DNA of 34,244 nucleotides, taken from the NCBI GenBank assembly GCA_007694185.1, contig RECD01000222.1, forward strand, positions 1 to 34,244, written 5' to 3'. Shown piece by piece: positions 1-34,244 of the stretch. This DNA is from Planctomycetaceae bacterium (GTDB lineage Bacteria > Planctomycetota > Planctomycetia > Pirellulales > Pirellulaceae). The notes beneath the pieces were generated by a model. It saw only the letters and a list, made by a program, of their open reading frames with translations. It made no database searches and was not told the DNA's origin. Both the position numbers and the translations under genes were made by a program. The first letter of the stretch is position 1, and every line of letters starts with the position of its first letter.

Positions 1-101
1 GGGATGAACTGATCGGACCGAGCGGGCCTGCCCATGGAACACCTCGGAGAAGGGATAGCGATTGGCGGATTAGAGCACCCGGCCAGGGGGAACGCAAGCA
101 G

Positions 102-120
102 AAAGTGGGTGGCACCTTTT
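102..120 (-). repeat. Single copy of dispersed GGTGCCACC repeat
   Basis: Read on the minus strand, this 19-bp stretch is AAAAGGTGCCACCCACTTT. That is nearly the core found many times at 23902-24065 and 33547-33822. It sits about 60 bp beyond the stop codon of the minus-strand antiporter gene, so like the other copies it lies in a gene 3' flank. The core GGTGCCACC is a 9-bp palindrome with one central base. No gene can be supported in bases 1-182. Confidence 0.7.
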
Positions 121-182
121 GTGGTGGGAGCTGCCCTCTGCGGGGATGCGATCGAGTTGTGACAATCGCCGGGCGACTGAGC

Positions 183-5341: not shown

Positions 5342-5478
5342 CGTGCTGGGCCGCCCTGGTTTTGCGATTCCGTCAAGGGACTGCCATGCAAATGGGCGGT
5401 TACTCGCATGGGCCGACATGACATTGGCCGGCACGAAGCGACCGCCCTGCCTTCCTCCCTTTACCCACCTTGCGGCTT

Positions 5479-8400
5479 ATGTCTTTCAGTTCCGGATGCC
5501 GGAAATCGGTGCCCGATCACCTCATTGTCAAGCTGCGAGCGTCCGTTTCGGTTTTACGACCGCGGGCCTTGCCTCCGTTCACGCGTGTCTCGTCGGCGTT
5601 GGTCGCGATCGTCCTGGTGATAGCGGGATGGGCGACCGCGGCAAAATCGGGTCACGCGGCCGAGTCAGGTGACGCCGGCGAACCGGCCGAATTGGGCGAA
5701 ACGCGGGTAGCGGCCGTGGGGTTCAACCGTGACGTCCGGCCGATCCTGTCCGACCGCTGTTTCTATTGCCACGGGCCGGACGAAAAGAACCGGGAAGCGG
5801 GCTTGCGGCTGGATATCCGCGAGGCGGCGCTGGAGGACCGTGGTGGGGGGGCGGCGATCGTGGCCGGTGATCCCGACGCCAGCCTGCTGATCGAGCGCGT
5901 GACCGACCCGGACGAATCGATGGTGATGCCGCCCCCGGAAAGCAAGCATGGGCGGTTGAGCGACGAGGAGGTTCAAACGTTTCGACGGTGGATCGCCGAG
6001 GGGGCCGAGTACGAGGCTCATTGGGCGCTCGTGCCGCTGGGGGAATTCGACCCGCCGGTCGTGCGGCAATCCGATCGGGTCGCCAATCCGATCGACCAGT
6101 TTGTGCTCGCGAAGCTCGAATCGCTCGGGATCGAGCCGTCGCAAGAGGCCGATCGGGCGACGCTGATCCGCCGACTCAGTCTCGATCTGCTCGGCATCTT
6201 GCCTGACCCGCAACGGGTGGCGGCGTTCGAAGCGGACGGTCGACCGGATGCCTACGAGCGGTTGGTCGACGAACTTTTGGCTTCGCCCTATTTCGGAGAA
6301 CGTTGGGCACGTCATTGGCTCGACCAAGCCCGTTACGCCGATTCCAACGGCTACTCGATCGATGGCCAGCGGGCGATGTGGCCGTATCGCGACTGGGTGA
6401 TTCGCGCGATCCAAGACGACATGCCGTTCGACCGGTTCACGGTCGAGCAGTTGGCGGGCGACTTGCTGCCGGGGGCGACGAAGGACCAGCAGGTCGCATC
6501 GGCCTTCCACCGGAACACGCTGATCAACCAAGAGGGCGGGAGCGACCCGGAACAATTTCGCCACGAAGCGGTCGTCGACCGTGTCAACACGACCGGGGCG
6601 GTCTGGTTGGGTTTGACGCTCGGTTGCGCCCAGTGCCACACGCACAAGTTCGATCCGATCAGCGATCGCGAATACTATCAACTGTTCGCCTTTTTCAACT
6701 CGGGCACCGATATCAACAGCGTCGGTGCGACCGTCCCCGTTTCGCCGGGCGAGATGTTGGGGATCGGGCCTGCGCCGATCGATGATCAGCGAGCGGCCCG
6801 GCGGACGGAATTGGAAGGACGACTGCGTGAACGGTTGGCGGAGCAGCAGCGGGTCGCTGAGGCGGCGACGGCGGCCAGCGAATCGGTCGAAGTCACTTGG
6901 ACGCAGGTAGCCTGGGCGACGGACGACCCGTCGGAACCGTTGCGGGTCGATGGCGATGCGGTGTTGGAACGCCAACCGGACGGGTCGTTGCTCGTCGTCG
7001 GCACGCCGTCAGGGAACGCGACCTACCGGTTGCGATTGCCCATCAGCGGCAAGGTCGCGGCGATCCGCTTGAGAGTGCTCGCTGACGACCGTCTGCCCAA
7101 GCGAGGCCCGGGGACGGCGAGCAACGGCAACTTCGTGCTGACGGCTGTGCAATTGGTCGTCGATGGCGAGGTGATCCGTCCGCTCGCCGCGCTCGCCGAC
7201 CACGCTCAGCCCGGTTATCCGGTCGCTGCCGCGATCGACGGCGATCCCAAAACCGGCTGGGCGATCAATATCGAATCCGGTTCGAAGGCGGTCATGAATG
7301 CCGACCACGAAGCGACCTTTGTGTTGTCGACGCCGATCGAGTTGGCTGGCGATGCCGACGCGACTGACGATTCCGATGCGGCGGCCCGCGATTCTGAGCC
7401 AGCTGGTGCGCGCGAAGTTTGGATCGAGCTGAAACATGAGCTGAACCAAAACTACCTCGTCGGGCGGTTCGCGATCGATACTGCGGAACAAGCCCCACCG
7501 GTCGCTGCGGAGACGCTGCTGCCTGACGCGGAATTGGTCCGAGCCCTCGGGGTACCAGCCGGTCGGCGGGCGGCCGCTGACAAAAAGCGAGTGGACGATG
7601 CCCTGAAAGCCGCATTTCCCGAAGTCCGGGACTGGCCCGCCACGCCGGCTGACGCGCGGGTGATGGTGATGGCCGAGCGGGATCAACCGCGGCCGACTTT
7701 TGTCAGCATCCGTGGCGACTTCCTGCGGCCCGACGAGTCGATCGGGGCGGTGTCGCCGGGAGGCTTGGCCGCCGTGGCGCCGACGCTCGAGCCAGAAGCC
7801 GGCCGCAACCGTCTCGATCTGGCGGAGTGGCTCGTCGATCGCGACAACCCGTTGACGCCGCGGGTCACGGTGAACCGCGTGTGGATGCGATATTTCGGCC
7901 GCGGCTTGGTGGAGACGGAGGAAGACTTCGGCACGCAAGGGACGCCTCCGACCCATCCGGAATTGCTCGATTGGCTCGCTCGTCAACTCCAAGGCCGCGG
8001 CTGGTCAATGAAGTCGTTGCACCGCTTGATCGTCACCAGCAGCACCTATCGTCAGGCCTCGCGGCATCGCGCGGATCTGCTCGAGATCGATGCGAACAAC
8101 CGGTTGCTCGCGCGGCAGAACCGGCTGCGGGTGGAAGCGGAGATCGTCCGCGACGCGGCGTTGTCGGCCAGTGGCCGTTGGGCGGCGATGATCGGCGGTC
8201 CCGGCGTCCAGCCGCCTCAGCCGGACGGCGTTTACGCCTTCACGCAGAACGTCAAGAGTTGGAAAGCGGACACCGGAACCAACCGGTATCGGCGCGGGAT
8301 GTACACGGAATTCTTCCGCAGCGCCCCGCACCCGCTGTTCACGACCTTCGACACGCCGGACTTTCAAACCGTCTGCACGCGGCGGAACCGTTCGAACACG

Positions 8401-8751
8401 CCGTTGCAAGCGTTGACGATCGCCAACGACGAGGCGTTCATCGAGTTAGCTCGCGGTCTGGCCGCGCGGCTGTTTCGCGAATTGCCGGACGCCACGGTAA
8501 CCGAGCGACTGGTCCATGCCTTTCGTCTGGCGGTCAGCCGCCAGCCGTCCGAAGTGGAACTCGAGATCCTCGTCGACCACCATCGCCGGCTGATCGAAAA
8601 CTTCGCGACGCCGGAAGGGGAGAACGAAGCATCGGCCTGGTTGGCCGGCGACCCTCAAGTGTTATCGCTCGATCAGCCTGCCGAGGTGGCCGCGTTCATC
8701 TCGATCAGCCGGACGATCATCAACACGGACAACTTCATCACCCGCGAGTGA
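5479..8751 (+). CDS. PSD1 and planctomycete cytochrome C domain protein (first copy)
   Basis: This is a 1090-residue exported protein from the ATG at 5479. The order is: a hydrophobic export segment around residues 38-60 (SSALVAIVLVIAGWATAA), a PSCyt1 domain with CFYCH at residues 94-98, a DUF1549 domain containing a second CxxCH (CAQCHTHKFDP, near residue 383), a beta-rich middle region, and a C-terminal DUF1553/PSD1 domain (NRVWMRYFGRGLVETEEDFG, then RRNRSNTPLQALTIANDEAF). The CxxCH motifs suggest covalently bound c-type haem, so it is probably redox active or electron accepting in the periplasm. No substrate is known with certainty for the family. The start is uncertain: about 37 residues precede the hydrophobic segment and no ribosome binding site is visible, so an internal start such as the GTG at VPDHLIVK is possible. 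A DUF1501 gene follows after 28 bp, the usual partnership in planctomycetes. Confidence 0.93.
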   Translation: MSFSSGCRKSVPDHLIVKLRASVSVLRPRALPPFTRVSSALVAIVLVIAGWATAAKSGHAAESGDAGEPAELGETRVAAVGFNRDVRPILSDRCFYCHGPDEKNREAGLRLDIREAALEDRGGGAAIVAGDPDASLLIERVTDPDESMVMPPPESKHGRLSDEEVQTFRRWIAEGAEYEAHWALVPLGEFDPPVVRQSDRVANPIDQFVLAKLESLGIEPSQEADRATLIRRLSLDLLGILPDPQRVAAFEADGRPDAYERLVDELLASPYFGERWARHWLDQARYADSNGYSIDGQRAMWPYRDWVIRAIQDDMPFDRFTVEQLAGDLLPGATKDQQVASAFHRNTLINQEGGSDPEQFRHEAVVDRVNTTGAVWLGLTLGCAQCHTHKFDPISDREYYQLFAFFNSGTDINSVGATVPVSPGEMLGIGPAPIDDQRAARRTELEGRLRERLAEQQRVAEAATAASESVEVTWTQVAWATDDPSEPLRVDGDAVLERQPDGSLLVVGTPSGNATYRLRLPISGKVAAIRLRVLADDRLPKRGPGTASNGNFVLTAVQLVVDGEVIRPLAALADHAQPGYPVAAAIDGDPKTGWAINIESGSKAVMNADHEATFVLSTPIELAGDADATDDSDAAARDSEPAGAREVWIELKHELNQNYLVGRFAIDTAEQAPPVAAETLLPDAELVRALGVPAGRRAAADKKRVDDALKAAFPEVRDWPATPADARVMVMAERDQPRPTFVSIRGDFLRPDESIGAVSPGGLAAVAPTLEPEAGRNRLDLAEWLVDRDNPLTPRVTVNRVWMRYFGRGLVETEEDFGTQGTPPTHPELLDWLARQLQGRGWSMKSLHRLIVTSSTYRQASRHRADLLEIDANNRLLARQNRLRVEAEIVRDAALSASGRWAAMIGGPGVQPPQPDGVYAFTQNVKSWKADTGTNRYRRGMYTEFFRSAPHPLFTTFDTPDFQTVCTRRNRSNTPLQALTIANDEAFIELARGLAARLFRELPDATVTERLVHAFRLAVSRQPSEVELEILVDHHRRLIENFATPEGENEASAWLAGDPQVLSLDQPAEVAAFISISRTIINTDNFITRE

Positions 8752-8779
8752 GTGCCACTCGACCTAGCGGATCATCGAT

Positions 8780-10288
8780 ATGAATCATCAACACCCCGAG
8801 GCGGGCGGTGAGAACCGGCCGCTACGAGACATCACCCGGCGACATTTCTTTGGCGATTGCGGCATCGGCCTCGGTGCGATCGCCCTGACCGATCTGCTCC
8901 GTGGGGACGGTGTCGCGAGCGGGGCGGAAGTGGCCGGCGAGTCACCGAGAACGCCACGCACGGGGCCGGTGCGGATCGACCCCAGCCGTCCGATGGCATC
9001 GCGAGCAGGGCATTTTCCTGGCCGAGCCAAGTCGGTCATTTTTATGTTCATGGCGGGCGGTCCGAGCCAATTGGACCTGTTCGATGACAAGCCGAAGCTC
9101 CGTGAATACAGCGGCCAGGCGCCGCCGGAAAGCTTGATGGCGGGGAAGCGATTCGCCTTTTTGAAGGGAACCGAAAAGCTGCTCGGTTCGGCGCTCCAGT
9201 TCGGCAAGTACGGCCAGTGCGGGATGGAATTGTCGGAATTGCTGCCGGAGCATCGCAAGATCGTCGATGAGGTCTGCTGGTTGCGCGGGATGACGACCGA
9301 CGTCTTCAACCACGGCCCTGCCAAGCTATTCATGAACAGCGGCTTTCAAGCCCCGGGCCGGCCGTCGCTCGGGTCATGGGCGACCTACGGGCTGGGTAGC
9401 GAATCGACTGACCTGCCCGGATTCGTCGTCCTGCAATCGGGGCCACGGGGGCCGCGAGCCGGCGCGACGTTGTGGAGCAGCGGGTTTTTGCCCACGTCTT
9501 ATCAAGGCGTGCCGTTTCGCGGGCAAGGCGACCCGATCCTGTACTTACGGAGCCCCGAGGGGATTTCACGAACCAGCGAGCGGGGGTTCCACGATGCCGT
9601 CGCGGCGCTCAATCGGGCTCGCTTGGACGAATCGGGCGATCCGGAAATTTTGACTCGCATCAACGCCTATGAAATGGCGTTTCGAATGCAGACCAGCGCC
9701 CAGGAGCTGATGGAAACCGAGCAGGAGACCGCCGAGACGCTCGCACTGTACGGCGCCGAAGCTGGCAAGCCGTCGTTCGCCAACAACTGCCTGCTTGCCC
9801 GCCGGCTCGTCGAACGCGGCGTCCGATTTGTGCAGCTCTACCACACCAATTGGGACCATCACGGCGGCCCGACCGAAAACCTCGATTTCCACCTGCCGCA
9901 GATTTGTCGTGAAGTCGACCAACCGGCTGCGGCATTGGTCCTGGACCTGAAGCGTCGCGGGCTGCTCGACGACACCCTCGTCATTTGGGCCGGCGAGTTC
10001 GGTCGGACGCCGATGGGCGAGGTCCGCGACAACGTCGGACGCGACCACCATGTCGACGCCTTCACCCTCTGGATGGCCGGCGGCGGTGTCAAATCGGGCT
10101 ACATCCATGGCGAAACGGATGAACTCGGTTTCGGTGTCGTTGAAAATAAAGTCCACGTTCACGACCTGCACGCCACCATCCTGCACCTGCTCGGGTTCGA
10201 TCACGAGCGGCTGACGTATCGATTCCAAGGGCGCGATTTTCGGCTGACCGATGTCCATGGCCGCGTGGTGCGCGAGATCCTCGTCTGA
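8780..10288 (+). CDS. DUF1501 domain protein, Tat-exported (first copy)
   Basis: This 502-residue protein starts 28 bp after the PSD1 gene and is very probably in its operon. The N-terminus has a twin-arginine motif, DITRRHFFGDCGIG, followed by a hydrophobic stretch, so it should be exported folded. The rest matches the DUF1501 family, a distant relative of the alkaline phosphatase/sulfatase fold: FMAGGPSQLDLFDDKP near residue 90, HTNWDHHGGP near 355, and a C-terminal block with VIWAGEFGRTPMGE and GRDHHVDAFTLWMAGGG. Histidines and aspartates in these motifs are plausible metal ligands by analogy with the fold. Whether the family hydrolyses sulfate or phosphate esters is not established, so I do not name a reaction. 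A second full-length member lies at 28864-30318. Confidence 0.93.
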   Translation: MNHQHPEAGGENRPLRDITRRHFFGDCGIGLGAIALTDLLRGDGVASGAEVAGESPRTPRTGPVRIDPSRPMASRAGHFPGRAKSVIFMFMAGGPSQLDLFDDKPKLREYSGQAPPESLMAGKRFAFLKGTEKLLGSALQFGKYGQCGMELSELLPEHRKIVDEVCWLRGMTTDVFNHGPAKLFMNSGFQAPGRPSLGSWATYGLGSESTDLPGFVVLQSGPRGPRAGATLWSSGFLPTSYQGVPFRGQGDPILYLRSPEGISRTSERGFHDAVAALNRARLDESGDPEILTRINAYEMAFRMQTSAQELMETEQETAETLALYGAEAGKPSFANNCLLARRLVERGVRFVQLYHTNWDHHGGPTENLDFHLPQICREVDQPAAALVLDLKRRGLLDDTLVIWAGEFGRTPMGEVRDNVGRDHHVDAFTLWMAGGGVKSGYIHGETDELGFGVVENKVHVHDLHATILHLLGFDHERLTYRFQGRDFRLTDVHGRVVREILV

Positions 10289-21321: not shown

Positions 21322-21925
21322 GGTTGGGAAGCTACTAGAAGGCAGGCCTCCGAATCCAGATCGATTTCTGCCAAACTTGCCCGTGTTGCCCGTTGCCCAT
21401 GTGAGTACCCCGAAGGAATTTCTCGAAATTTGCATGGATGGCGGTTCGATTTTCCCTTGTTGAGCGTTTTCTCATCCGCGGGTCAGCACAAATCCTTGAG
21501 TAAAATCAGCCTCCAGACGCTAGCCCACGATTCCCGCAATCCGCGCGCTAACGCGTTCGGCTAATCGATGTCGCACCGGAACGTTGGTGCTGAACTGCTT
21601 GCGATCTGCCTTGGCTTTGATCTCCGATCCAAAATCAGCACGCTATGCCAAGATCGGGACGCCGACAAACTGACCTTTCTGCGCCGGTGACCTCTCGTTG
21701 CCCCATCCCACCCGACCTTGGTGCCGAGCGACCCGCGACGAATCATGCGGGGCACTCCACGTTCGCCAACGCTTCCTCGTGAGCGACTCACCTGGGCTAT
21801 ACTTGCGACAATGAAAACGTGGCTTTTTTGTCGCATGAGTGCTTTACATTGGCTTCGGCTGGCATAAACTGTCGGTCAAATCCCCAGCAGCGTGTTGTCG
21901 ACTTCGCCTCGCCAGGAGTATCTCC
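21322..21925. other. Long intergenic region with few recognisable signals
   Basis: About 600 bp separate the divergent L,D-transpeptidase and DUF4914 genes. I see no supported gene: open frames here have biased, arginine- and serine-rich translations. A TATACT sequence at 21798-21803 is a possible -10 box for the DUF4914 gene, but no good -35 box lies 16-18 bases upstream. Otherwise nothing recognisable. Confidence 0.4.
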
Positions 21926-23863
21926 GTGCCTCTGTCTCAACTCCCCGAATTGACACTTTCGAACTCGGCGATGTCCGTGTTGGAGGCCGCCGAACGGAGT
22001 GGGCGGCTGACACTGGTCGGGTCGGTGGAAGAGCTTGTGGAACTCGCCGTCCCCAAAGACCGATGCGACCCGCAAGGTTACTTTACGGTCGGTTATGACG
22101 TTCCGGACCGCGGCTTCACCCCGGAAGCGCGTGTATGCCGCGTTCGCAACGGCATCTCAGCCAACTATGTGGAGCCCTACATGCGGCGACGCGATCCCGA
22201 CTGCATGGTGATCGCAGACGATTCGGCGACCGACAAGCCGACTTTCAAAGGCCGGTTCGGACAAGAATTCGCCGAATTGCGTGCTGAGACGCTGGAATGG
22301 CTCAAAACGCAACCGCTGGCCTGTTTCTTTTTCGAGTCGGGCCTGCCCGGATCCGCGCTCAACGCCTTGGCGATCTGCCCAGCCAACGCGGGGTTCTTCG
22401 GGCTCGGCCTGGCCATGCTGCAGGGCATTGTGCCGCTGGAAAAGATCCGCGAGATGGGGACGGATTATTTTCATGGGGCGGTCGTTTACACTGCGCCGGT
22501 CTTCCGGCACACCCACTTCGACGGCAAGCAGGTGGTAGTACACAACCGCCGGTTCGAAGAGGCTGGGCTACACGAACTTTTCAGCTACAACCTCTACCCA
22601 GGACCTTCAGCGAAAAAAGGCGTTTACGGGATGTTACTCACCCTCGGCGAGCGCGCCGAAACCCCGTGGACGACCGCCCACTGTTCCACCGTCCAAGTCA
22701 TCACGCCCTACGACAACACGACCACCATCATGCATGAGGGTGCCTCGGGCGGCGGCAAGAGCGAAATGTTGGAGCAAATGCACCGGGAGCCTGACGGCCA
22801 GATTCGCCTCGGCACGAACGTCGTGAGTGGTGACGCGCGGTTCGTTACGATCCCTCGAGGCTGTGAACTCCGGCCGGTCACCGACGACATGGCGTTGTGT
22901 CATCCCAAGCTGCAGAAGACGAACGGACGCTACCAGCAATTGTCGCTGATTGACGCCGAGCAGGGCTGGTTCATCCGCGTGAATCACATCACAAAATACG
23001 GGACCGACCCGCACCTGGAAAGCATAACGACCCACCCACCCGGGCCGCTGCTGTTCTTGAACATAGAAGCTCAGCCCGGTTCCACCGCCTTGATCTGGGA
23101 CCACATCCACGACAAACCGGACCAACCCTGCCCGAACCCGCGGCTGATCATGCCGCGACATTACGTCCCCCGCGTCGTCAACGATACGGTAACCGTTGGC
23201 ATTCGCAGTTTCGGAGTCCGCTGTCCGCCTTGCAGGCGTCAGGAGCCAACTTACGGGATCATCGGTCTGTTCCATGTCTTGCCGCCGGCATTGGCATGGC
23301 TGTGGCGGTTGGTCGCACCGCGTGGCCACGGCAACCCCTCGATCGTCGCCCAAGGCGGCATGCAGTCGGAAGGGGTCGGTTCTTACTGGCCGTTCGCGAC
23401 CGGACGCCGTGTCGACCAGGCGAACATCCTGCTGCATCAGATCGTCGAGACGGCAACGACGTTATTCGTGCTTGTCCCCAATCAGCACATCGGCAGTTGG
23501 GAAGTGGGCTTTGCACCTCAGTGGATTACCCGCGAGTACTTGGCCCGCCGCGGCACGGCCATGTTTCGCAAAGAAGAACTGCTGCCGTCCCGATGTCCGA
23601 TCCTCGGTTACCATCGTCATTCGATTCAGGTCGAGGGGCAAACGATCGGCCCCTGGTTTTTTGACGTCTCCGCCCAACCGGAGGTGGGCGAAGAAGCCTA
23701 CTACCTCGGCGCGAAGCAGTTGACCGACTTCTTTCATCAGCAGATTCGCACCTTCCAGTCGGCGGATCTCGACCCGCTGGGCAAGGAGATGATCGAGGCC
23801 TGCCTGGACGGTGCGTCGCTGGAACAGTACGAAGCATTCACACCGGACGCCGCGGCGAAATAG
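21926..23863 (+). CDS. DUF4914-type P-loop protein of unknown function
   Basis: This is a 645-residue protein from the GTG at 21926, chosen because AGGAG at 21914-21918 is seven bases upstream. An in-frame extension to 21839 lacks such a signal. The sequence matches my recollection of the DUF4914 family, whose members are of similar size. The one clear functional motif is a Walker A loop, GASGGGKSEM, at about residues 272-281. It resembles the P-loops of PEP carboxykinase-type and HPr kinase enzymes, so nucleotide binding and perhaps phosphotransfer are likely. Other conserved-looking blocks are FFESGLPGSALNALAI, VSGDARFVTIPRG, FLNIEAQPGSTALIWDH and GGMQSEGVGSYWPFATGRR. There is no signal peptide, so it should be cytoplasmic. 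It stands alone, with repeats between its 3' end and the convergent lipoprotein gene. Confidence 0.7.
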   Translation: MPLSQLPELTLSNSAMSVLEAAERSGRLTLVGSVEELVELAVPKDRCDPQGYFTVGYDVPDRGFTPEARVCRVRNGISANYVEPYMRRRDPDCMVIADDSATDKPTFKGRFGQEFAELRAETLEWLKTQPLACFFFESGLPGSALNALAICPANAGFFGLGLAMLQGIVPLEKIREMGTDYFHGAVVYTAPVFRHTHFDGKQVVVHNRRFEEAGLHELFSYNLYPGPSAKKGVYGMLLTLGERAETPWTTAHCSTVQVITPYDNTTTIMHEGASGGGKSEMLEQMHREPDGQIRLGTNVVSGDARFVTIPRGCELRPVTDDMALCHPKLQKTNGRYQQLSLIDAEQGWFIRVNHITKYGTDPHLESITTHPPGPLLFLNIEAQPGSTALIWDHIHDKPDQPCPNPRLIMPRHYVPRVVNDTVTVGIRSFGVRCPPCRRQEPTYGIIGLFHVLPPALAWLWRLVAPRGHGNPSIVAQGGMQSEGVGSYWPFATGRRVDQANILLHQIVETATTLFVLVPNQHIGSWEVGFAPQWITREYLARRGTAMFRKEELLPSRCPILGYHRHSIQVEGQTIGPWFFDVSAQPEVGEEAYYLGAKQLTDFFHQQIRTFQSADLDPLGKEMIEACLDGASLEQYEAFTPDAAAK

Positions 23864-23901
23864 ACGCCCGGTTCGTAAAAGCCTGAAGGGGCCACCAGCC
23901 G

Positions 23902-24065
23902 GAAGGTGCCACCCACTTTGTGCGAGCCGGAAGGTGCCACCCACTTTGTGCGCAGCCCAGCCGGGCCGGAAGGTGCCACCGAAACGCCGAAAGGTGCCGC
24001 CCACTTTGTGCGGAAAGCCGGAAAGCCCGAAGGTGCCAGCTGGAAGGTGCCGCTCACTTTGTGTG
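23902..24065 (+). repeat. Cluster of GGTGCCACC-type repeats between convergent genes
   Basis: At least six copies of GAAGGTGCC-[AG]-[CG]-C occur, several extended to CACTTTGTG. They start at 23902, 23930, 23969, 23989, 24029 and 24043, with a degenerate seventh near 23886. The two best copies are 28 bp apart and match over 23 bases; others are shortened or carry point changes, as in a decaying array. The cluster fills nearly the whole gap between the stop codons of the DUF4914 gene (23863) and the lipoprotein gene (24087). The same core occurs at 102-120 and 33547-33822. Confidence 0.85.
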
Positions 24066-24086
24066 GCCTTCTTGTCGAAACAGGGG

Positions 24087-24422
24087 TCAACCCGAGTTCG
24101 CTTTTTGGAATCGGAAGCAGGCTTGCTCGGCCGCTTCCCATTCTCCCGCACTGGCGATGGCAATGATCTCGATCAACTTTTCGTATTCCGTGTCGCTCAA
24201 CCGCTGGTCCTGGCGCGCGTCCTCGACCTTTTGACGTACTTCCTCTAGGTGCTCCGAACTCCTAGCCGAGCAGGCGGTTCGTATGGCCGTCAACAAACGC
24301 ATCGTCTCACCGCTGGTCATCGTCGGCATTCGCTCGCAACCGCCCAGAGTGGTGACGGCGATCAGCAGCAAAGTGACCCCCGCGGTAGTCAGCAGGCGGC
24401 GGCGAGACGGCTGAGACGACAT
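24087..24422 (-). CDS. Small lipoprotein, partner of DUF1559 gene
   Basis: This is a 111-residue protein from the ATG at 24422. It has a positively charged N-terminus (SSQPSRRR), a hydrophobic segment and a lipobox, TTLGGC, placing the lipidated Cys at residue 29. The mature part is short and helical, with RLLTAIRTACSARS, LEEVRQKVEDARQDQRLSD and AGEWEAAEQACFRF. Its start lies 23 bp after the stop of the DUF1559 gene, so the two are probably co-transcribed. No catalytic motif is visible. Small lipoproteins of this kind are, from memory, frequent next to DUF1559 genes in planctomycetes. The function is unknown; an envelope accessory role is the simplest reading. Confidence 0.8.
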   Translation of the reverse strand: MSSQPSRRRLLTTAGVTLLLIAVTTLGGCERMPTMTSGETMRLLTAIRTACSARSSEHLEEVRQKVEDARQDQRLSDTEYEKLIEIIAIASAGEWEAAEQACFRFQKANSG

Positions 24423-24444
24423 GCGGAACTCGTTGGTCACGTAC

Positions 24445-25446
24445 TCAGTATTCACCGACCACCTCACCACCATTCATGCTGGACAACGCGGCCCAGACTT
24501 GCGCTTGGACGTATTCGCCGATGAACCGGACGCTGCCGTCGCCGAAGGCCACGTTGCAGCCACCGGGATGGCTGGCGTACATCTGGCAGACGTGGGCTTC
24601 AGGCGCGTTGGGGGGATGGACGACGAACCCCTCGGCGGCGGCCGGGCCGCTGTGCACCAGCATGTAGGTTGCGGCACTCTCGCATTCGGTGAATGGGAAA
24701 CGTTGTGGGCTGTTGGTGCAAACCTCCGCCCCGGGGATGATCCCGACCCACGTCTTGTCGCTCAGCAGCGGGTGGTGCTCGCCGAGGAACACTGTGTTTG
24801 ACAATCCGTCGATGACATCCCGCAGCTTCACCCGGCCGTTGCGGATCATCGGCCCGTTCACTCCGGGCACCGGTCGCCAATCGGTGATCGCCGAGCCCCA
24901 AGGTTCCTCGTGGCCGGCGTTGCCGACGTAAGTGCTGCGACCAAAGGTTGCCAATTCGGCTCGCGAACCGTCACGAACAATGACCGGAGAATCGCTCATC
25001 GTCGCGGACGGGCAGAGATAAACCGGCAGCCGCGTGGTGACCATGGCGGCATTTTCGGGAGCCCAGCAGGGGAGATCGAAACGGAGGTTGTCGTGCAACG
25101 CGTTGCCTTCGATGTACGGCAACAAAAGGGCGCTCCAGCCCCACCCGGACGGCCCGTCGAAGGTCGCCGGATCGCGGTTCGGGTGAAACGAATCGCTGAT
25201 GTATGCCGACGGCAAGCTGCCAAGTGTGTCGTGGTAATTGTGCATCGCCAGGATCTGCTGCTTGAGCTGATTGCTGCACTGCATTCGACGCGACGCCTCG
25301 CGGGCGGCTTGCACCGCGGGCAGCAACAAGCCGACCATCACGCCGATGATCGCGATCACAACCAGCAGCTCCACCAAGGTGAACCCGCGGCGGCCGTGGC
25401 GGCGAAGGAGATTCGACTTTTGCTTTTCCAGGAAGAGACTGGGCAT
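24445..25446 (-). CDS. DUF1559 domain protein with prepilin-type N-terminus
   Basis: This is a 333-residue protein from the ATG at 25446; a TTG one codon upstream is less likely. The N-terminus has a type IV prepilin/pseudopilin cleavage signal: RRHGRRG followed by FTLVELLVVIAIIGVMVG, with Gly21/Phe22 as the cut site and Glu26 at the +5 position. LLPAVQAAREASRRMQCSNQ then leads into the DUF1559 domain. The C-terminus has the typical block HPGGCNVAFGDGSVRFIGEY. The family is greatly expanded in planctomycetes, and the proteins are likely displayed at the envelope through a type II/IV-like assembly system. The individual roles are unknown. The gene is divergent from the second PSD1 gene, with a paired palindrome between them. 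Confidence 0.93.
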   Translation of the reverse strand: MPSLFLEKQKSNLLRRHGRRGFTLVELLVVIAIIGVMVGLLLPAVQAAREASRRMQCSNQLKQQILAMHNYHDTLGSLPSAYISDSFHPNRDPATFDGPSGWGWSALLLPYIEGNALHDNLRFDLPCWAPENAAMVTTRLPVYLCPSATMSDSPVIVRDGSRAELATFGRSTYVGNAGHEEPWGSAITDWRPVPGVNGPMIRNGRVKLRDVIDGLSNTVFLGEHHPLLSDKTWVGIIPGAEVCTNSPQRFPFTECESAATYMLVHSGPAAAEGFVVHPPNAPEAHVCQMYASHPGGCNVAFGDGSVRFIGEYVQAQVWAALSSMNGGEVVGEY

Positions 25447-33480: not shown

Positions 33481-33546
33481 GCAGCGAAGCGATCGTTCCG
33501 CAATTCATCTGAGGCAACGAGATCTGAGCAGCTACGAAAGACGCCA

Positions 33547-33822
33547 GCCCTTCAAAAAGGTGCCACCCACATTTCAGCCCTTCCAAAAGGTGCCACCCAC
33601 ATTTTGTCGGCTCCCCTTTTCGGGTTTCTATCCCGAAAGCCCTTCCAAAAGGTGCCACCCACATTTCAGCCCTTCCAAAAGGTGCCACCCACATTTTGTC
33701 GGCTCCCCTTTTCGGGTTTCTATCCCGAAAGCCCTTCCAAAAGGTGCCACCCACATTTCAGCCCTTCCAAAAGGTGCCACCCACATTTTGTCGGCTCCCC
33801 TTTTCGGGTTTCTATCCCGAAC
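33547..33822 (+). repeat. Three tandem 92-bp units containing GGTGCCACC cores and a hairpin
   Basis: Units begin at 33547, 33639 and 33731 and are nearly identical; the first differs by a single base near its start and the last by one base at its end. Each unit has two copies of CCAAAAGGTGCCACCCACATTT, giving six in total. Each then has an inverted repeat, TTTCGGG and CCCGAAA around a seven-base loop (33618-33638 in unit one). The array begins about 66 bp after the stop of the secretin-like gene. Because 92 is not a multiple of three and the units lack stop codons, all plus-strand frames are open and encode the same peptides in rotation. This is an artefact and not a gene. Confidence 0.92.
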
Positions 33823-34244
33823 GACCCCCGAAAAGTGACACGAACGCCACCGCGAATCACACCACTCACTCTATGCCGAGGTGCTGCGAGCAAACGGGAC
33901 GACGATCGGCGTCTGGTCCCAATAGCCGGCTGCTCACAAGGCGGGAGGCTAGCACCAGTGAGGCGTTTTGGTACCCTGGAATTTGGCTAGAGTTCTGCGG
34001 CAGACGCTTGAAATGAGCACTCTTGGCCATGAGCGGACGGTCGGCCTGGCGGTCGAAACTGTCGGCAAAGCGAGTGCAGTTTAATTGCCTAGGCCGCGAC
34101 GAAGAAGGCTCGGGCAGTCTTTTGACCGCGGTGCCAACCTCGACCGTGACGCTGCGCGTCCTCCGCCATCGCTGGCGACGAGCCCGCACACGAGCCCCTG
34201 CCAAAGTACTTCTTGAAATTCCACACCAGCTCACGCCACATCGA
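33823..34244. other. Right-hand end with no supported gene
   Basis: After the 92-bp repeats, the last 420 bases contain only weak open frames. A minus-strand frame from 34234 to 33866 is open but arginine- and serine-rich. A second minus-strand frame entering from the edge (MWRELVWNFKKYFGRG) ends after about 50 residues. Either could be the tail of a gene outside the window or chance. I see nothing recognisable. Confidence 0.4.

Follow-up and report, generated by a model that had tools for sequence, protein, structure and literature searches.

A short repeat at three sites of a Planctomycetaceae contig as the probable terminal repeat of a multi-copy RAYT transposase element

Contig RECD01000222.1 of Planctomycetaceae bacterium (GenBank assembly GCA_007694185.1; 34,244 nucleotides, analysed as a whole and referred to here as the window) carries the short motif GGTGCCACC at three separate sites, which raises the question of what this motif is and what has spread it. 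The original prediction likened it to REP (repetitive extragenic palindrome) elements, which are spread in other bacteria by RAYT (REP-associated tyrosine) transposases, and stated that the window holds no such transposase. The comparisons made here argue that a multi-copy RAYT (TnpA_REP) element family has a terminal inverted repeat (TIR) with GGTGCCACCCAC at its core. The probability of about 0.92 given to this reading refers to what the repeat is and not to how its arrays are formed. By translation and search match, the contig is cut within a RAYT gene at either end, and such genes are flanked by two of the three repeat sites. The source genome (5.78 Mb in 288 contigs) is labelled G000, where C numbers denote contigs and other G numbers denote other genomes.

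All three sites are borne out by the letters, as GGTGCCACC is found at 108-116 (-), at 23905, 23933 and 23972 (+) with degraded copies at 23888, 23993, 24032 and 24046, and six times within 33559-33781 (+). With one mismatch allowed, the window contains 36 matches versus 10.8 +/- 3.5 after shuffling, none of 100 shuffles reaching 36, where every GGTGCCACC scores again on the opposite strand with one mismatch. The 14-mer AAGGTGCCACCCAC, present nine times in the window, has 54 exact copies in the genome versus 0 for the reversed pattern, and the repeat is thus real and far above chance. Contig ends cluster at these copies (43 of the 54 lie no more than 700 bp from one), because the RAYT gene and the arrays are repeated and break the assembly, and 54 is therefore a minimum count. 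The pattern AAGGTGCC[AG]CC has 73 copies in 31 sources within the same genome, 71 of them outside genes predicted by a simple codon-usage caller, whose genes cover about 86% of the window (summed list), while one of the two intragenic copies consists of identical letters inside a transposase gene. The repeat is accordingly extragenic and reiterated in the genome, as REPs are, and not spread evenly through coding DNA. Counted per copy, 94 predicted gene ends neighbour the 73 copies, 63 of them 3' and 31 of them 5', where RAYT fragments at contig ends are mostly uncalled as genes and 52 sides have no gene in view. Placement at 3' ends is a bias and no rule, and the copies were wrongly said to lie always beyond a stop codon, since the copy at 99-121 has the stop of an exchanger gene on one side and the transposase gene's start on the other. 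Nor are the flanks common to all sites: CACTTTGTG is confined to the 23.9-kb cluster (four copies), and the other two sites read CACTTTCTG and CACATTT.

The right contig end (34098-34244, -) matches residues 338-386 of a homologue in G013 (E 3.3e-12), in a frame that is open from the contig end to the stop at 34089, and the left end encodes the start of a gene of the same kind (Table 1); the statement that the window lacks a RAYT transposase was thus mistaken. The Pfam model PF01797 (Y1_Tnp) has no match in the whole genome at E <= 1e-3, as this RAYT branch is too divergent for the model, and gives only E 0.048, 0.072 and 0.0019 on three homologues; such a search alone would have led to a false rejection of the REP/RAYT parallel. 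The NCBIfam model NF047646 (REP_Tyr_transpos) matches the three tested homologues with E 3.2e-9, 1.5e-3 and 6.1e-9, all three below its curated cut-off. A phmmer search against the Protein Data Bank (PDB) sequences found no relative, and only the fold comparison gave one. The best of five AlphaFold2 models (predicted local distance difference test score 82.6, predicted template modelling score 0.86; the former 75.6-47.3 in the other four) has as its best Foldseek match 4er8, the E. coli RAYT bound to a REP hairpin, at E 1.7e-3, with no match at E <= 0.001, and VIA-align superposes 159 of 165 residues on 4er8 with Z 11.3 and a root-mean-square deviation of 2.9, the next entry scoring 7.2. Residues H72, H74 and Y184 and the NP that follows are invariant in 15 aligned homologues. 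The catalytic tyrosine was first suspected to be missing, a view dropped once the Y---NP motif of Quentin was applied. The gene is thus identified, by motifs and predicted structure, as a RAYT (TnpA_REP, Y1/HUH tyrosine transposase) of class 2, which has HUH and Y---NP in a Y1 fold.

These genes are not of the domesticated kind that usually occurs once per genome. The search with the G013 homologue gives 12 RAYT matches in the source genome, mostly fragments at contig ends, and of 100 family genomes, 85 have matches, as many as 31 in a single genome when split and partial ones are counted. When copies of the source genome are compared, likeness at the start of the coding sequence is 95% (9 copies, 35-123 nt) but falls to 59% in the preceding 70 nt (ungapped; range 30-91%). 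At the other end it is 92% over the final ~147 coding nt (5 copies) and 42% (range 33-53%) over the 450 nt after the stop, where a shuffled control gives 31% (at most 39%); some copy pairs are no more alike than shuffled in the stretch after the stop. As the coding ends are alike and the flanks diverged, either the coding parts would be conserved by gene conversion or selection at old, diverged sites, or the copies would move and acquire new flanks.

The layout of these genes relative to the repeat points to an element with ends. The RAYT gene starts mostly 64-85 nt, and up to 148 nt, inside one repeat copy, and an inverted copy is often found 80-450 nt past its stop. A complete element at G013:C59 comprises AAAAGGTGCCACCCACC, promoter-like TTGACA/TACAAT, the gene, about 450 nt and the inverted copy, while the complete gene of the source genome is at G000:C27:2781-3944. 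In the source genome, TTGCGT, 17 nt and TCTAAT (six) or TTTAAT (two), followed by a gene beginning MGRPARSDQF, were matched by pattern in eight copies, the window copy included, one of which lies on a contig that ends before the gene start; a stricter promoter scan did not call the pair at 69..97. Inverted repeats scoring at least 12 between the two flanks are present in 24 of 53 elements of a first set (56 elements from 31 family genomes, 53 with enough flank) versus direct repeats in 4 of 53, two of which are a tandem RAYT pair in G010, and in 16 of 46 elements of a second set (named genomes, 46 of 60 with enough flank) versus direct repeats in none, three elements being common to both sets. 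Labelled core types are carried by 22 of the 24 inverted-repeat elements. The named elements with inverted repeats include members of Holophagae, Verrucomicrobia and Lysobacter, and a Pseudoalteromonas element, outside the 46 owing to its short flank, scores 17.

Three further loci show other states of the gene. A second, diverged RAYT start lies on the opposite strand (2192-2338, -) directly upstream of the complete copy in G000:C27:1-6500, and G000:C178 holds a RAYT pseudogene with three in-frame stops and degraded but recognisable repeats on both sides. The tandem pair at G010:C1:4606000-4611000 has long matching flanks and resembles an element duplicated in place.

The sequence of the repeat appears to follow the transposase clade. 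The types found are GGTGCCACCCAC, GGGGCCACCCA, and GGGACACCCA/GGGGACAGAGC with their kin. In a tree of 106 proteins (10 of 116, shorter than 290 aa, left out; 62 of the 106 rows unlabelled and outside the label test), the GTGCCAC type is found in a single clade (support 100/100) and in one outlier; this clade has 26 rows, 16 labelled and 10 unlabelled, with none of another type, and sister clades have GGGGACA-type repeats. All labels together require 4 changes versus 16.9 when shuffled. G013 and G093 each hold RAYTs of two kinds, each kind with its own repeat, and base composition is therefore not the explanation. In the 17 genomes that hold the closest RAYT clade, GGTGCCACCCAC has a median count of 6, versus a median of 1 among the remaining 83 (p 4e-10; p 0.24 for the reversed control), where the clade cut, a best E under 1e-170, was chosen after seeing the table, and the 15 genomes without a RAYT match have counts of 0-2. 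Other repeat types are amplified in some genomes only: GGGGACAGAGC occurs 77 times in G095 and 23 times in G017 (controls 3 and 3) and 0-9 times in the other 7 of 9 genomes searched, while AGGGACACCCA occurs 18 times in G111 and 10 times in G066 (controls 4 and 2) and 0-3 times in the other 4 of 6.

The centre of the motif was originally taken as a palindrome with one central base, GGTG-C-CACC, but a one-base loop cannot fold; the predicted single-stranded structure is instead a hairpin of 20-23 nt with stem GAAAGGTG/CACTTTTC and loop CCACC, not the simple GGTGCCACC palindrome. The copy in C139 is predicted to fold as CGAAAGGTG-CCACC-CACTTTTCG with -5.6 kcal/mol (z -3.8; other strand z -2.8). 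Over 235 distinct windows around the core, pooled, the two innermost outer-stem pairs are Watson-Crick in fractions of 0.55 and 0.54 versus 0.44 and 0.45 when shuffled (0/500), the pairs include both A-T and T-A, and stem pairing is 0.48 in register versus 0.24-0.31 when slid by one or two columns. GTGCCA-type repeats have a mean fold z of -2.17 (n=15; 8 of 15 under -1.5), while GGACA-type repeats do not fold (+0.13, n=18) and the GGCCA type has no clear fold (-0.46, n=4), all against mononucleotide shuffles. The palindrome of 20-40 nt which in REPs folds as a single strand is thus present here by prediction only, and a plain terminal repeat seems to have gained a hairpin in one clade, the direction of this change being inferred.

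Extra repeat copies are seen by sequence comparison to form head-to-tail arrays, both at element ends and at solo sites, as neighbouring copies of the source genome within 150 nt have the same direction in 41 of 42 cases. Inverted pairs, the usual unit of REPINs and BIMEs, are not the unit here, although single inverted pairs exist, such as G013:C293. The units of an array share a locus-specific outer flank and differ in their inner ends, as in C135, where CATCCTCCGGAA is followed by CATCCTCCGGAAGGTGC and CATCCTCCGGAAGGTGCCACCCACTTTTTGCT. The outer flank has a median of 12 nt (interquartile range (IQR) 9-13) and the inner end one of 19 nt (IQR 15-28.5, range 5-80) in the source genome (n=35 pairs); the corresponding values are 8 (6.5-9) and 23 (15.25-43.5, range 4-105) in GGGACA arrays (n=30), and the inner end is 27 (13-58) in GGTGCC arrays of other genera (n=18). 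In the array at 33545..33821, the periods are 30, 62, 30, 62 and 30 nt, and the common outer flank is AGCCCTTCC, which reads AGCCCTTCA in the first copy. Two arrays have a more complex structure, namely G000:C86:1-480, where nine exact copies are arranged, with shortened units, in a higher-order repeat about 130 nt long, and G113:C112:541900-544000, a long array in which GGTGCCACCCACTTTTCGGG units are interleaved with opposite-strand GGGGACACAC units, as if two families had grown together.

The ends of the array units suggest nicking near a preferred outer place, from which the following mechanism may be proposed. The HUH enzyme would bind the folded repeat, nick one strand with its tyrosine, and so spread the repeat and sometimes the whole gene. 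In an array, the nick would fall at a preferred place about 7-9 nt outside the hairpin foot. Synthesis would then proceed from the 3'-OH across the repeat for varying lengths, and rejoining of the displaced 5'-tyrosine end would add a tandem unit whose outer start is roughly fixed and whose inner end varies. Solo arrays in decay, that at 23.9 kb being one, would be leftovers. Growth of arrays by nicking, extension and rejoining is the least certain step and is put forward tentatively; the wider proposal, that this RAYT branch builds its arrays in this way and that in one planctomycete clade a plain GGGACACCCAC-type TIR became a hairpin REP of the form GGTG-CCACC-CACC, stays likewise somewhat short of probable.

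For this array step only, the RAYT may have brought no more than the first copy, with growth by replication slippage or unequal crossing-over at the hairpin, an explanation which is itself possible rather than probable. It draws on the microhomology at some array junctions (CACCC in C13, for example) and on the 92-nt higher-order unit at 33545-33821 and the 130-nt one in C86, which look like secondary unequal exchange. However, slippage gives no reason why independent arrays, whose flanks differ, should have a preferred outer start, and the same polarity of common outer flank and variable inner ends is found in genera whose repeat (GGGGACAGAGC kin) has no hairpin, the non-folding type noted above (z +0.13, n=18). 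As non-folding repeats give the same polarity, hairpin slippage alone explains the arrays poorly.

It is improbable that the repeats are maintained because they serve the host, for example by terminating transcription or protecting mRNA 3' ends, with the RAYT link a matter of history. The extragenic position and 3'-end bias (63/94) would suit it, as would the RNA fold of one unit of the 33.5-kb array, which surpasses that of most shuffles (z -2.4). The RNA of the 23.9-kb array, however, folds no better than shuffles (z +0.74), a terminator scan finds none in the 33.5-kb array and a single terminator-like site in the stretch scanned, outside the array (shuffle mean 1.3), a third of the neighbouring gene ends (31/94) are 5' ends, and the copies track the RAYT clade. 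Still less probable is that the motif is a regulator binding site instead of a mobile repeat, acting as operator for a host regulon or for the RAYT promoter: it does adjoin promoter-like hexamers at RAYT genes in three genomes of two genera (G000, G003, G013), and autoregulation of the RAYT is plausible, but many copies are in arrays without hexamers, at gene 3' ends, or inverted beyond the RAYT stop. Chance or an assembly artefact, to which the proximity of 43 of the 54 exact copies to contig ends might point, can practically be dismissed, as the reversed control is 0 and both RAYT genes and motif occur in the single-contig genomes G015, G023 and G047.

Several observations weigh against the TIR reading, the hairpin or the proposed array step. 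As for the ends, 29 of 53 and 30 of 46 elements have no inverted repeat over the score cut, and the complete copy of the source genome at C27, scoring 8, is one of these; the four rows labelled GGGCCAC do not cluster in the tree (3 changes versus 3.9 shuffled); and G113 (49), G006 (10) and G011 (8) are rich in the motif without a RAYT over the clade cut. As for the hairpin, one of the 23.9-kb copies (z +0.95) and one C13 copy (z +0.11) fold poorly, the search pattern for the windows fixes the core, which places the inner stem pairs outside the pairing test, and related copies inflate all pairing counts. The copies of the source genome alone show no excess of outer-stem pairing, and other genomes alone have 0.47 versus 0.37 shuffled (1/500) at the innermost outer pair and 0.46 versus 0.44 at the next; as the excess at this next pair is missing within the separate sets, the pooled excess there comes from pooling them. 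As for the arrays, the outer flanks of GGTGCC arrays in other genera are less tight (median 7.5, IQR 6-11.75), copies and pairs within one array are not independent, and unequal crossing-over can copy an existing start point to further units. Pairs with a common outer flank of less than 5 nt were left out (27 of 62 in the source genome, 18 of 36 for GGTGCC, 26 of 56 for GGGACA), which trims the outer lengths from below, some of the excluded pairs being chance matches outside arrays. No transposition event was observed and no target-site duplication seen. An empty site was sought only at the 23.9-kb array, where the DUF4914 3' flank in two genomes of the same genus is without the array; in those genomes three downstream frames of the window were also not found within 1.5 kb of DUF4914. 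For the gene next to the 33.5-kb array, no ortholog was matched in the four genomes searched.

In kind, the repeat, REP-like and terminal to a multi-copy RAYT element of a planctomycete, belongs to known systems (TIRtron, REPtron). The protein domains encoded in the window are likewise those of a planctomycete. TIRtrons (TIRYT) are described in passages of Di Nocera 2013 (PMC3733652) as RAYT-like genes between TIRs, with repeats dispersed singly, as dimers or in groups, a layout shared by the elements studied here (24/53 and 16/46); the same passages name the planctomycete R. baltica as rich in tyrosine-transposase genes with flanking repeats, and note that large clusters of REPs are reiterated together with varying lengths of flanking DNA. 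The TIRtron consensus given there, GGGGWSAS, differs at two positions from GGTGCCAC, the form found here, which gains a predicted hairpin. The likeness to REP, BIME and REPIN elements of E. coli, Pseudomonas and Stenotrophomonas, as outlined in parts of PMC8266576, is structural, that is, a short, abundant extragenic palindrome tied to an HUH transposase, whereas the arrays here are head-to-tail instead of inverted pairs and the transposase is multi-copy instead of usually single. The GTAG/CGTC foot of REPs is also absent as a rule: on the outer side, GTAG is found in 0 of 55 copies of the source genome and 1 of 286 overall, and CGTC in 2 of 55 and 5 of 286; on the 5' side of the other strand, the values are 0/55 and 7/286 for GTAG, 1/55 and 7/286 for CGTC, and 9/55 and 30/286 for the variant GTGG, with 2/55 and 21/286 for its reversed-letter control GGTG. 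The proposed parallel with REP and RAYT therefore holds in substance, with a RAYT gene in the window itself and copies also at 5' flanks, while the label of a classical REP does not, given the missing foot, the head-to-tail arrays and the role of the repeat as the TIR of an element. IS200/IS605 elements share the Y1/HUH fold and hairpin ends, but have Y---Q as tyrosine motif instead of Y---NP, and the protein here is much longer.

Within TnpA_REP, the closest match by motifs is subclass 2.3, for which the relevant passages of Quentin 2018 (PMC6006769) give WE, YVDLNP, TS, a long HUH-W distance or insertion, a long C-terminal tail and several copies per genome, and report no flanking REPs. The RAYTs here share the tail and the copy number as well as these motifs. 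YVDLNP is present in 114 of 116 proteins (a set partly selected by the Y..LN pattern), WE in 83 with no W pattern matched in 23, TS in 78 and TG in 31, while the HUH-W distance is 91-92 in 83 of 116; Alteromonadales members with subclass 2.3 motifs fall in the same tree. By contrast with the NHYH described there, NHLH prevails here (68 of 116 versus 9 of 116 with NHYH), Shewanella members also having NHLH; the hosts are Planctomycetota, and the assignment is by motifs only. The repeats here, moreover, often flank the gene as inverted repeats and have predicted hairpins in one clade. Judged by titles and abstracts, the open-access literature has no match of the core sequence that concerns a bacterial genomic repeat, and no paper on Rhodopirellula and RAYT that is titled on RAYT repeats. 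No description of the repeat, of its link with a subclass-2.3-like RAYT, of its plain and folding forms or of its polar arrays was found in that literature, where overlap with the R. baltica repeats of Di Nocera 2013 is possible, the TIR sequences of that paper being in figures and supplements outside the comparison.

The coordinates of the window features are listed in Table 1. The array at 23.9 kb is, as originally described, a decaying cluster between convergent genes, here the DUF4914 protein ending at 23863 and an open reading frame of 128 aa at 24087-24473 (-). The DUF4914 protein (21839-23863, +; E 1.8e-296) is about 90% identical in two genomes of the same genus. A PSCyt1/PSCyt2/PSD1 protein followed by a DUF1501 protein is encoded at 5470-10288 (+), a gene pair common in planctomycetes.

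Table 1. Repeat and RAYT features of the 34,244-nt window.
Feature	Position	Strand	Basis
RAYT (TnpA_REP) gene, 5' end, first 11 codons (MGRPARSDQFI...), running off the left contig end	1..35	-	translation; same start in other contigs of the genome and in the complete C27 copy
Ribosome-binding-like GAGGTG before the RAYT start	40..45	-	sequence pattern only
Promoter-like pair TTGCGT (97-92), 17-nt spacer, TCTAAT (74-69), directly inside the repeat	69..97	-	sequence pattern
REP/TIR copy CAAAAGGTGCCACCCACTTTCTG, putative 5' terminal repeat of the RAYT element	99..121	-	sequence
Solo decayed head-to-tail REP array without RAYT gene	23880..24067	+	sequence comparison
Six-copy REP array beyond the RAYT 3' end, inverted relative to the RAYT gene	33545..33821	+	sequence comparison
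Non-coding stretch from RAYT stop to repeat array	33822..34088	-	position; strongly diverged between copies of the genome
RAYT gene, 3' end, comprising the final 51 codons plus stop and cut by the right contig end	34089..34244	-	search match, translation

The RAYT branch described here is thus multi-copy, with coding ends 92-95% alike between copies of one genome and flanks far more diverged. Terminal repeats are now seen for a subclass that had been reported to lack REPs, with predicted folding in one clade of the gene tree only, and the ends of the array units may record where the enzyme cuts. If this is true, the folding clade would be a case of a REP arising from a TIR.
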